Source: Georgenia sp. M64 (GTDB lineage Bacteria; Actinomycetota; Actinomycetes; Actinomycetales; Actinomycetaceae). Taken from it: a stretch of DNA of 64,000 nucleotides. The position numbers and the translations under genes were made by a program. Below are positions 46,080 through 49,516 of this stretch, one piece after another. Positions within the stretch are counted from its first letter, which is position 1, and every line of letters starts with the position of its first letter. The notes under the pieces were generated by a model. It did no database searches. It was not told the origin of the DNA and saw only the letters and a program-made list of their open reading frames with translations. The DNA is taken from contig NZ_CP145809.1 in assembly GCF_038049925.1 (NCBI RefSeq), positions 2,948,599 through 3,012,598 of the forward strand, in the 5' to 3' direction.

Positions 46080-46400
46080 TCACTCGAAGGTTCGGACGCT
46101 CGTCACCCTCAGCACGCTGAGCTGGGAGGCGACCCGTACGCGAAGCGAGCTGGGCGCAACCTCGGAGCAGGACCGTCGCAGCAGGGCCCGGATGTGTTGC
46201 TCGGCGTCAGCTGCCTCGTGGCAGGTGGGGCAGTTGTCGGCATGGGCGCGGAACCGCGCGCACTGGTCCTCGTCGAGCTCGGAGTCGAGGAACTCCATGA
46301 GGTTGTCGAGGAGCTCCTCGCACGTGCAGCGACCGTCTCCGGAGCGCTCACGCACCGCTCGCTCGGCGCGGTCGATCAGGTCGGGATTGTCCTCGGTCAT
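46080..46400 (-). CDS. rsrA: zinc-containing redox anti-sigma factor, RsrA type
   Basis: A 106-residue ZAS-family anti-sigma factor. The zinc motif is His53-x3-Cys57-x2-Cys60 (HADNCPTC), with more Cys at 25, 27 and 47 that can form the disulfide trigger. Under thiol oxidation such proteins lose zinc and release the sigma factor. The ATG overlaps the sigR stop (ATGA), the usual arrangement for a stoichiometric pair. Confidence 0.93.
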
Positions 46401-47200
46401 GCCTTGGCCTCCGTCCGAAGTCCGAGCTCGTGGGCATGGTCGACGAGCAGCTCCCGCAGCTGCCGTCGTCCCCGGTGGAGCCGGGACATCACCGTCCCGA
46501 TCGGGGTGGCCATGATCTCGGCGATCTCCTTGTACGCGAAGCCCTCGACGTCAGCGAGGTAGACGGCGAGGCGGAAGTCCTCCGGAAGCTGGTTGAGTGC
46601 GTCCTTGATCTCCGAGTCGGGCAGGAGGTCGAGCGCCTCCGCCTCGGCCGAACGCAGACCGGTCGAGGTGTGTGAGGCCGCCCGGTGGATCTGCCAGTCC
46701 TCGACGGAGTCGGCGTCGGACTGCAGGGGCTCGCGCTGCTTCTTGCGGTACGAGTTGATGAACGTGTTGGTGAGGATCCGGTAGAGCCAGGCCTTGAGGT
46801 TGGTGCCGGGCCGGTACTGGTGGAAGGCGGCGAACGCCTTGGCGAAGGTCTCCTGGACCAGGTCCTCCGCATCGGCGGGGTTGCGGGTCATCCGCATCGC
46901 CGCGCCGTAGAGCTGGTCGAGGTAGGGCAGGGCGTCCTGCTCGAAGCGGAGCGACCGCTCGGCGTCGGTCTCGCCGTCGGAGGTGCGGTCGAGGTCACCC
47001 TCGTGGCTCTCGGTCATCGACATCCAGGTTAGCCCGGCCTGCAAGCCGGTGGCGCTCCCAGCCGGCTCGGTCAGCGGGAAACCGGCTGCCGCCGCCTCCG
47101 AACGGACGGGCGACGGGTCGACCGAGCTCGAGTGGTCCGTCAGGGCGAAGGGTTGGACCGGCGAGAGGTTCGGGGCCAGGGCCTGGAGCATCGCGGTCAT
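46397..47200 (-). CDS. sigR: ECF sigma factor of the SigR/SigH thiol-stress type, with N-terminal extension
   Basis: Group IV sigma factor controlling the thioredoxin/mycothiol response. Region 2 lies at about residues 88-155 ([48 protein letters not shown]), region 4 at about 200-255 ([41 protein letters not shown]). The conventional protein would start at the ATG at 47023 or 47017 (MSMTESHEG). An in-frame ATG at 47200 with TAGGAGAC before it adds 59-61 residues, and a perfect SigR promoter lies just upstream of it. Streptomyces makes such a long, unstable SigR' from its autoregulated promoter. I give the long form; both are probably made. Confidence 0.92.
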
Positions 47201-47209
47201 GTCTCCTAC

Positions 47210-47235
47210 AACCGAGCCGCGTGCCGGGGCATTCC
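47210..47235 (-). promoter_or_regulatory. SigR-dependent promoter GGAAT-N18-GTT
   Basis: On the minus strand GGAAT (47235-47231), exactly 18 bases, then GTT (47212-47210), an exact match to the SigR/SigH consensus. It ends 9 bases before the upstream ATG of sigR, so the transcript would start at or just before that codon. Confidence 0.85.
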
Positions 47236-47260: not shown

Positions 47261-48766
47261 TCAGGCGGCGAGGTGGTGGGTGGTGGGGAGGATCTCGGTG
47301 TTGTCGTGGCGGTGGAATCGCCATCGGTGGTGTTCGCGGGTGATGGTGATGCGGCGGGCGTGGACGTGGTCGTGGTGGTGCCAGCAGAGCAGGATGCCTT
47401 TGTTGGTGTCGGTGGGGCCGTGGTGGGCGTACCACCACAGGGAGTGGTGGATCTCGCCCTCGCCGGGTGGTGCGGTGCAGTCGGGGTACTGGCAGTGGCG
47501 GTCCCGGGCGATGATCGCCCGGGTCTGGGCGGTGGTGTAGAGGCGTTCCTCGCGGCCGACGTCCAGGGGTTGGGAGTCGGGCCCGAACACGACGCGGTGG
47601 ATGCCGGAGGAGCAGGCCAGACGGGCCAGGAGGGCGTGCGGGAGCGGGGTGCCGTCGGCCAGGGTCGCCGGGTCCGCGCCGATCATGGCGGTGGTGTCGT
47701 AGTCGGTGGAGATCACCGTCCCGCACCCGCCCTGCCCGCACCCGCACCCGGCCAGGCCGGCCAGGCCGGCCAGGGCGGTCGGGGCGGTCGGGGCGAAGAA
47801 CGCGCTGCCCGCGCCCTCGGCACCGCCGGCGCAGCGGGGGTCGGGGGAGGTCGCGAGGCGGTGGAGGGTGTCGAAGGGCACCGTCACGGCCAGGTGGGGG
47901 CGGGTGCGGGCATGGGGGCGCAGGGTCCCGGAGTCCAGGGCCAGGCGGGCGATGCCGGTCAGGGCCCCGGCGCGGCGCTGGGCCGGGGTGGCCGGGTCGC
48001 TCTGGGCCGGGGTGCCGGTCCGGGCGGTCAGGGCGGTGTTGAGGACCTCGCCGCTGGTCTCGCTGAGCCAGCCCTTGATCGACCACCCGCCGGTGGTGCG
48101 GGAGAGGTAGAGCTCTTCCCGGTCGGTCTCGGCGCGGTAGCGGTGGTCCGCCGCGGCCGGGTCGGCCCGGATCGCCCAGGCCCTGACCAGGTGGGTGAAG
48201 GCGGAGGCGTCCATGTCCTGGGCGTGGGCCAGGAGGAAGTCCTCACCGGTGTCGGGGTCGGCCAACCGCTCCCGCAGGGTCGCGGTGGTCAGGGCGTGAC
48301 GGACCAGGGCCGCGGCGTGGTCCGGGCCGACCCGCCCGGCGGCCAGCGCCGCCGCGGTCGCGGGCAGGTGATCGCGCAGCGCCCGGGTCCGGGCGACCTC
48401 GACCCGGGCGGTGACATCGGTGCGGCCGGTCCGGGCCCGGTACCACGCGGGCAGCGACCGGGCCCCGTCCGTCGCCCACAGCCCGTGCGCGTCCACCGCC
48501 GACAGGACCCGCCCCGCCAGGGCCTCGACCTGACGGCGCAGCCCCTCCACGGCGGTGACCGCGTCCAGGACCTCCTGACCCGCCGCACCCAGCACATCGA
48601 CCTCGAGGACCGCCGCGACCTCGGCCACGACCCGCGCCAACCCCACCGACAACGACAACACCGGCACCGACGCCGCCGACGACGCCGCCGACGACGGCGA
48701 CGTGCCGGGACCGGTGGACGCGGCCCCCGGGCGGGACGGGACGGACGCAGCGCCGTCGGTGCTCAT
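47261..48766 (-). CDS. 13E12-repeat/DUF222 family protein with HNH nuclease domain
   Basis: A 501-residue protein of the mycobacterial 13E12 type. The DUF222 region spans about 30-380 (EGLRRQVEALAGRVLSAVDAHGLW, LPAWYRARTGR, AGRVGPDHAAALVRH, GWSIKGWLSETSGEVLNTAL). The C-terminal HNH domain carries the two cysteines of RHCQYPDC, the histidine pair IHHSLWW, and LLCWHHHDHVHAR. An Ala/Leu/Gly repeat (ALAGLAGLAG) and Cys/Gly-rich piece sit at about 370-385. The family is DNA-damage-linked and often multi-copy. ATG 48766 after GGTGAGG; longer frames run into the SOS promoter and were rejected. Confidence 0.9.
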   Translation of the reverse strand: MSTDGAASVPSRPGAASTGPGTSPSSAASSAASVPVLSLSVGLARVVAEVAAVLEVDVLGAAGQEVLDAVTAVEGLRRQVEALAGRVLSAVDAHGLWATDGARSLPAWYRARTGRTDVTARVEVARTRALRDHLPATAAALAAGRVGPDHAAALVRHALTTATLRERLADPDTGEDFLLAHAQDMDASAFTHLVRAWAIRADPAAADHRYRAETDREELYLSRTTGGWSIKGWLSETSGEVLNTALTARTGTPAQSDPATPAQRRAGALTGIARLALDSGTLRPHARTRPHLAVTVPFDTLHRLATSPDPRCAGGAEGAGSAFFAPTAPTALAGLAGLAGCGCGQGGCGTVISTDYDTTAMIGADPATLADGTPLPHALLARLACSSGIHRVVFGPDSQPLDVGREERLYTTAQTRAIIARDRHCQYPDCTAPPGEGEIHHSLWWYAHHGPTDTNKGILLCWHHHDHVHARRITITREHHRWRFHRHDNTEILPTTHHLAA

Positions 48767-48809
48767 CCACCTCACCCCTTCTCCGGGTCGAGTCCATCTC
48801 CTTCCCAGC

Positions 48810-48839
48810 ACGCTATCGAACGCCCGTTCGGCCACACAA
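48810..48839 (-). promoter_or_regulatory. SOS-controlled promoter of the 13E12/HNH gene
   Basis: Candidate -35 TTGTGT (48839-48834) and -10 TAGCGT (48815-48810), 18-base spacer. The LexA box lies inside the spacer, where bound repressor would block RNA polymerase. Confidence 0.6.
48817..48830. promoter_or_regulatory. LexA (SOS) box
   Basis: CGAAC-GCCC-GTTCG, a perfect match to the actinobacterial/Gram-positive LexA site CGAAC-N4-GTTCG, about 50 bases before the 13E12/HNH start. Confidence 0.85.
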
Positions 48840-49018
48840 GAGGTCCGACTTGTGTATTTCAAATTGTGGAAAACCACGCGAATCCACAGGGCATTCGCCA
48901 TGCCGTCGCCCCGCCACCACCGCTCGCCGTCCCCCTCCCCTGTCGCCTCCCGTTCTGGGTGGATGATCGAACGGCCGATCAGGTCGCCGGTCGGCCGCTG
49001 GTGCGGTAGCAATGTGTT

Positions 49019-49516
49019 ATGAGCCTCAAACGTCTGGTCGCCCGGCCCCTGCTCGCCTCCGCCTTCATCGTCGACGGCTTCGACGCCGCGATCCGTCCGG
49101 CAGGCCACGTGGCGAGGTTCAAGAAGGTCGCCCCGGCGATGGAGAGGGCCGGCCTGCCCCCGGTCCTCACCGCGGACGCCACCATGCTCACGCGCGCCGT
49201 CGGCGTCATCAGCGCGCTATCAGGCCTCATGCTCGCCACCGGCCGGAACCCGCGGTCTGCCGCGCTGACCCTGGCGGTCATCAACATCCCGCTGACTGTC
49301 GTGAACAACCCCGCCTGGACCGCCCGCTCGGGCGCCGAGCGCAAGGAACAGCTCTCCGGGCTCCTGCGCGGAGCCGGGATCGCAGGCGGCCTCCTGCTCG
49401 CGGCCGCCGACCTCGCGGGCAAGCCCTCCCTCTCCTGGCGTTACGCCAACGCCAAGGATCATCGCGCCGAGCTCCGTGAGGTCAGGACCACGCTCAAGCA
49501 GCGGTACAAGAGCTGA
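49019..49516 (+). CDS. DoxX-like membrane protein
   Basis: A 165-residue protein with four membrane helices. The opening LVARPLLASAFIVDGFDAAIRPAGHV and the third segment LTRAVGVISALSGLMLATGRNPRSAAL are typical of DoxX-family proteins; in mycobacteria DoxX works with SodA and SseA in oxidative-stress resistance. Start ATG at 49019 in the relatively AT-rich gap that also serves the SOS promoter on the other strand. Confidence 0.85.
   Translation: MSLKRLVARPLLASAFIVDGFDAAIRPAGHVARFKKVAPAMERAGLPPVLTADATMLTRAVGVISALSGLMLATGRNPRSAALTLAVINIPLTVVNNPAWTARSGAERKEQLSGLLRGAGIAGGLLLAAADLAGKPSLSWRYANAKDHRAELREVRTTLKQRYKS

Follow-up and report, generated by a model that had tools for sequence, protein, structure and literature searches.

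The window, that is the whole 64-kb stretch of DNA that was analysed, carries on its reverse strand a gene for a sigma factor of the SigR type. The reading frame that opens at the ATG at 47200 (minus strand) encodes 267 amino acids and runs to 46397. Its product matches the Pfam profiles Sigma70_r2 and Sigma70_r4_2 above cut-off, so that both region 2 and region 4 of an ECF sigma factor are present. Two putative promoters, p2 and p1, each precede an in-frame ATG of this gene. In the direction of transcription the features are:

47231-47235, minus strand: -35 element GGAAT of the SigR/SigH-type promoter p2 (motif scan)
47210-47212, minus strand: -10 element GTT of p2, after a spacer of 18 (motif scan)
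47201-47209, minus strand: nine-base stretch GTAGGAGAC from GTT to the long start; its length is kept across loci, its Shine-Dalgarno-like letters are not
47018-47200, minus strand: 61-codon extension of the long form, SigR', with its ATG at 47200-47198; predicted +1 at the A or one base before
47026-47031, minus strand: -10 box TAACCT (TANNNT) of p1, inside the extension codons and 8 bases before the short start
46397-47017, minus strand: short SigR, predicted start ATG at 47017-47015, MTESHEGD..., 206 amino acids
46080-46400, minus strand: RsrA-type anti-sigma factor of 106 residues, with a four-base overlap with the sigR stop

The product of the gene 3' of sigR carries the Pfam domain zf-HC2 and the residues HADNCPTC, of the HxxxCxxC zinc-binding type; with the overlap of the two genes, it appears as expected for RsrA. 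Upstream of p2, and read in the same direction, a gene for a DUF222 protein (47261-49108, minus strand) stops 25 bases short of the -35 element. The p1 -10 box is directly preceded by a small inverted repeat, CCGGC-TTGCAG-GCCGG (47034-47049, minus strand). The earlier note had placed an exact SigR/SigH consensus upstream of sigR, followed nine bases past GTT by an in-frame ATG adding about 60 residues. The consensus, GGAAT-N18-GTT, is indeed found at 47235-47210 (minus strand), and the ATG at 47200 adds 61 codons.

The arrangement was compared across actinomycete sigR regions. Of 329 loci at the outset, 297 matched the SigR core in tblastn searches and 295 of these were within the length and score limits. 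After L002-L006, which are other sigma factors, the motif loci L145-L174 and duplicates had been set aside, 281 distinct loci remained. Seventeen carry no GGAA[T/C]-N17-19-GTT within 620 bases, leaving 264 promoter-bearing loci, for each of which one promoter was retained with preference for GGAAT and N18. One hundred regions were hand-picked for family spread among the best matches listed, and the named contigs are the best 80 of at least 573 by similarity, so that near relatives are over-represented. The loci also share descent and the counts are therefore not independent. Family f1 is that of the window's genome; we infer that f19 corresponds to Mycobacteriaceae and f32 to Streptomycetaceae.

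An ATG or GTG lies exactly nine bases past GTT in 107 of the 264 promoter-bearing loci, against a background of 3.5% (offsets 14-59). This start is in frame with sigR in 105 of the 107, and all 105 frames are open to the core. Offsets 8 and 10 provide 16 and 9 more in-frame open starts among the 264 loci. The excess at offset 9 has a nominal binomial p of 1e-82, which is not a true probability because the loci share descent; on a FastTree tree of 176 scored loci, the outer state is observed in 88 and changes at least 26 times. The exact outer spacing is absent from 159 of the 264 loci, which counts against the two-unit reading proposed below. Its distribution is uneven: it is found in 10 of 10 Cellulomonas loci, 9 of 9 of family f13, 21 of 27 Nocardioides, 14 of 24 of f1 and only 2 of 30 of f19. 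Both the outer and the inner unit are present in all nine same-genus loci (window included) and, exactly spaced together, in 99 of the 281 distinct loci. All 105 loci keep frame 0 open through the extension, compared with 2 for frame 1 and 28 for frame 2. Openness alone proves little, since the antisense frames are often open too (33, 91 and 67 of 105). The comparison supports the earlier note in that a SigR-type promoter is so placed as to yield a SigR with an N-terminal extension, with spacing nine, frame and openness combined in 105 of 264 loci and in all nine of the same genus.

Two other offsets also carry start-like codons. At offset 7, an ATG or GTG occurs in 36 of 264 loci (7 in frame); those inspected are RTGTG overlaps with a start at offset 9. 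At offset 0, 42 of 264 loci have such a codon, in frame and open in 26, which reflects the sequence GTTGTG. It is possible that some of these GTTGTG codons serve as starts.

The extension itself is less constrained than its reading frame. The earlier note had named unconserved extension codons or frameshifts in close relatives as evidence against its reading. As far as the frame is concerned its expectation holds (105 of 105 open, the nearest relative differing by ten whole codons), but the residues are poorly conserved: in 35 close pairs, the extension (1112 codons) has a pN/pS of 0.79, against 0.12 for the core (3500 codons). The length of the extension takes 43 values between 12 and 95 codons in 99 loci, with the frame kept. 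Residues drifting almost freely in a maintained frame would fit a disordered tag better than a folded part. Conservation of extension residues had been expected and was mostly not found, the sole standout being the motif [LVIM][EDQ]RP. It occurs in the first 16 residues in 24 of the 105 loci, compared with 2 and 2 in the other frames and a mean of 0.6 in shuffled residues, and anywhere in 18 of the 159 loci without the exact outer spacing. Most loci that carry it belong to Nocardioides, f38 or Cellulomonas (examples with the motif are L038, L066, L204 and L222), and none of the 14 f1 loci does so; the window thus has no copy. At a guess, it may be a recognition tag.

Such free drift, and the lack of a residue motif common to most extensions ([LVIM][EDQ]RP being present in 24 of 105 and absent from the window), would also be compatible with p2 merely raising transcription. 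The upstream start would then be used but the extension would be idle, and SigR' would be a by-product with the stability and activity of SigR. A useless product would not need a start and a frame that are kept in 105 of 107 loci in spite of widely varying lengths. Furthermore, Streptomyces SigR' is reported, in an excerpt of the source, to be unstable through its extension (PMC5472188). We regard an idle extension as unlikely.

The position of the p2 transcript start follows from the numbering adopted for the promoter. In Corynebacterium glutamicum, according to an excerpt of PMC10012870, the T of GGAAT is set at -31. With a spacer of 18 this places GTT at -12 to -10 and the A or G of the start codon at +1. 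In the sigmaH open complex, the last two -10 bases are numbered T-10 and T-9 (PMC6411747, excerpt), which implies a one-base leader for the p2 mRNA. The base before the long start is C or T in 104 of 105 loci; the remaining 159 promoters retain a purine at offset 9 in 117 cases and have a pyrimidine at offset 8 in 99. This pyrimidine-purine step favours a +1 on the start codon itself. Under either numbering, the SigR' mRNA is predicted to be leaderless or nearly so, a prediction of the earlier note that gains support from the step and from the fixed spacing.

The sequence TAGGAG, which the earlier note had pointed out in the DNA before the long ATG, is present, yet conservation does not extend to it. 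Only two of the nine same-genus loci have it, namely the window and its nearest relative L007, and AGGA, GGAG or GAGG precedes the long start in 15 of the 105 loci, the window being SD-like unlike most of its relatives. A Shine-Dalgarno reading of GTAGGAGAC was therefore dropped, the spacing being conserved and the letters not, and it is this difference that underlies the prediction of a leaderless SigR' mRNA. An mRNA starting at or one base before the ATG would not include TAGGAG. Alternatively, the locus could be leadered as in Streptomyces, whose loci have leaders according to PMC5472188 and to the named loci compared here: the mRNA would start farther upstream, TAGGAG or other sites would be used, and short SigR would arise by internal initiation on any transcript. 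TAGGAG is at a suitable distance from the long ATG in the window and L007, but it lies between the -10 element and the ATG and thus outside the predicted p2 transcript. Moreover, 90 of 105 loci of like spacing have no AGGA, GGAG or GAGG at that place, and 7 of the 9 same-genus loci have no TAGGAG. A leadered message at this locus thus appears improbable, and a leaderless or near-leaderless SigR' mRNA remains the preferred reading.

The p2 motif is the only GGAAT-N17-19-GTT in the 64-kb window. Taken alone it is unremarkable, since shuffled windows contain 0.36 matches on average and 29 of 100 shuffles at least one. The host genome (G000, 4.18 Mb) contains 35 matches as opposed to 5 for the reversed control. 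An accidental motif before the long ATG, a reading to which the matches in 29 of 100 shuffles lend some colour, is scarcely credible given that motif, spacing and frame are alike in nine of nine same-genus genomes whose spacer letters have diverged, and that the motif is enriched genome-wide, with two thioredoxin genes among the ten downstream proteins scanned.

Of the 35 genome sites, 30 have loci and 26 (repeats counted once) were read downstream. The ten downstream proteins scanned with Pfam include, besides the two thioredoxins, three luciferase-like monooxygenases and one each of PAC2, glyoxalase, MFS and glycosyl hydrolase 1; one has no match. At 4 of the 26 sites, sigR included, a frame of 90 codons or more begins with an ATG or GTG exactly nine bases past GTT. 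The three others precede two luciferase-like monooxygenases and a protein without Pfam match. Given these four sites, leaderless SigR targets may form a regular class in this genome rather than a peculiarity of sigR. The two luciferase-like monooxygenase genes, L147 (G000 583158-583182) and L148 (978727-978751), have GGAAT-N17-GTT with the ATG or GTG nine bases on. The thioredoxin genes L145 and L162 also have GGAAT-N17-GTT, with 39 and 47 bases from GTT to ATG, and are likely leadered SigR targets. Two identical GGAAT-N19-GTT sites (G000 1509077-1509103 and 1509235-1509261) lie 158 bases apart, which suggests a repeat. Four further GGAAT-N17-GTT matches (L153, L163, L164 and L165) are identical to each other; they are probably copies of a ribosomal RNA gene, and hence chance motif matches.

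A second feature of the locus, missed in the earlier note, is the inner -10 box with the short start. Among the 502 ATGs that are in frame, open and no more than 330 bases from the core, TANNNT lies at spacing 8 in 209, with at most 7 at any other spacing from 0 to 19; among 422 out-of-frame ATGs it lies at spacing 8 in one. When the ATG was chosen blind to the box, as the in-frame ATG closest to the core at a distance of 12 codons or more upstream, TANNNT-N8-ATG was found in 195 of 266 loci and every other spacing in at most 2. The box, of SigA type, is thus at a fixed distance from the start. It forces a CTA, GTA, ATA or TTA codon on the extension, and this codon is CTA in 111 of 212 loci, whereas the cores of these loci use CTA for 16 of their 3053 leucine codons. 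Since CTA is frequent at the box and rare in the cores, the constraint acts on the DNA rather than on the protein. In-frame GTG codons with TANNNT at spacing 5 (55 of 767) correspond, in those inspected, to a GTG directly preceding the ATG, and hence to the same box.

The 212 p1 sequences have a pyrimidine at -2 in 206 and a purine at -1 in 202, which suggests a 5' end one base before the inner ATG. No -35 element was found for p1, either in the base counts of the 212 loci or in the window by a sigma-70 consensus scan, which gave no match for p1 because it demands a -35 element. This absence counts against p1, although many actinobacterial promoters have no -35 element. The conserved TANNNT-N8-ATG without visible -35 is considered a candidate separate downstream promoter for the short form. 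The short start of the window is an ATG with no AGGA, GGAG or GAGG before it, as in 88 of the 99 loci with both units. With short starts picked by a residue rule, which covered 94 of the 105 outer-unit loci, an SD-like stretch precedes the short start in 12 of the 94. The residues LGS, conserved ahead of this start, had been considered as the trace of a ribosome binding site (GGGGAG); the underlying DNA is CTAGGCTCG, a TANNNT box, and the candidate was rejected. All 10 Cellulomonas and all 27 Nocardioides loci have the inner unit, as do 21 of 24 f1 loci. It is absent from the five named Streptomyces loci, all 3 of f32, all 10 of f30, 6 of the 7 f31 loci and 28 of the 30 f19 loci, and these gaps count against the two-unit reading. 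On a FastTree tree of 182 scored loci the inner state changes 9 times.

Taken together, these features suggest that sigR is probably read from two nested promoter-start units, a stress promoter p2 giving SigR' and a housekeeping promoter p1 giving short SigR, both leaderless or nearly so. Under disulfide stress, RsrA would release SigR, as established for Streptomyces. SigR-RNA polymerase would then use p2, with a transcript whose first base is the A of the upstream ATG or the base preceding it. Ribosomes starting on this leaderless mRNA would make SigR' with its 61 extra residues. Without stress, the housekeeping polymerase would use p1, with an mRNA beginning about 0-2 bases before the inner ATG, and short SigR would be made. 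Because most relatives have no Shine-Dalgarno sequence at either start, each promoter should give one isoform, the long mRNA yielding little short protein. With both isoforms made from (nearly) leaderless messages, promoter choice should set isoform choice. What sequence and comparison establish are the motifs, the exact spacings, the frame and the scarcity of Shine-Dalgarno sequences, whereas the 5' ends, the sigma factor assigned to each promoter and the induction of p2 by stress are inferred. By analogy with Streptomyces, SigR' would be a short-lived feedback form.

The closest known system is that of Streptomyces coelicolor SigR/SigR', whose long form is unstable and a Clp substrate. Its promoters sigRp1 and sigRp2 are reportedly the subject of Kim 2009 (Mol Microbiol). 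In the excerpts of PMC5472188 and PMC4921905, SigR, once released from RsrA, reads the sigR gene from sigRp2 to give the longer, unstable SigR', and sigRp1 gives stable SigR. The two systems are alike, within the sources as excerpted: an autoregulated upstream promoter (predicted here) gives the long form (there with 55-58 extra N-terminal residues), a downstream promoter (a candidate here) the short form, and RsrA is the partner. In both, a SigR-type promoter lies upstream of an in-frame start that lengthens SigR. However, an in-frame ATG or GTG 7-10 bases past GTT is found in none of the five named Streptomyces loci, nor is TANNNT-N8-ATG. The Streptomyces short form has an extensive ribosome binding site, AGGAGGTG, and a GTC start (PMC5472188, excerpt), whereas the short start of the window is an ATG without Shine-Dalgarno sequence. 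The equivalence with the Streptomyces promoter drawn in the earlier note thus holds for the promoter type and the in-frame lengthening, but not for the placement of the start, absent in 5 of 5 Streptomyces loci, nor for the short form. The present locus would seem to follow Streptomyces logic with other hardware, two leaderless units replacing leaders with binding sites.

Parts of the arrangement are known elsewhere, as described in excerpts of the respective sources. Mycobacterium tuberculosis sigE, with P1, P2 and P3, has an autoregulated promoter with a leaderless mRNA and an internal coding-region promoter giving shorter isoforms (PMC10027907). It is a different sigma factor, and the order is reversed: in sigE the short forms come from the inner promoter P3, which is read by SigH under stress, and at the present locus the putative stress promoter p2 lies outermost. 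Among 25 SigH starts mapped in the same species, 3 are no more than 5 bases away from the annotated start codon (PMC4803200). The C. glutamicum SigH/SigE targets clgR P1 and cg3344 have GGAA-type promoters and a start codon 0-1 bases from the 5' end, but no isoform pair in the excerpt (PMC10012870), and sigH itself differs, its three mapped starts lying 22, 89 and 93 bases upstream (PMC3489674). An autoregulated leaderless promoter combined with an internal short-isoform promoter (sigE) and near-leaderless SigH/SigE targets are thus already known, and the leaderless SigR' with a codon-embedded p1 box is a variant of these. A search of titles and abstracts found no leaderless SigR' and no -10 box inside the extension; an earlier description in Kim 2009 or Kim 2012 (Mol Microbiol), the most relevant papers, is possible.

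The finding turns the Streptomyces system into a widespread and directly testable design, in which promoter choice would be isoform choice and no ribosome binding site would be needed. It also offers a natural pair for the study of leaderless translation under stress, one protein with two leaderless starts of which one is predicted to be stress-induced. In practice, the two spacings may help to place start codons, GTT-N9-(A/G)TG marking the long start and TANNNT-N8-ATG the short one. More tentatively, many actinomycete families outside Streptomyces and the Mycobacteriaceae may have isoform choice fixed at the transcription start by two nested leaderless units, the inner -10 box being written in long-form codons. 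If so, with leaderless initiation on the long and the short message alike, the feedback loop could outlast an impairment of Shine-Dalgarno initiation, which would tie the thiol-stress response to translation stress.
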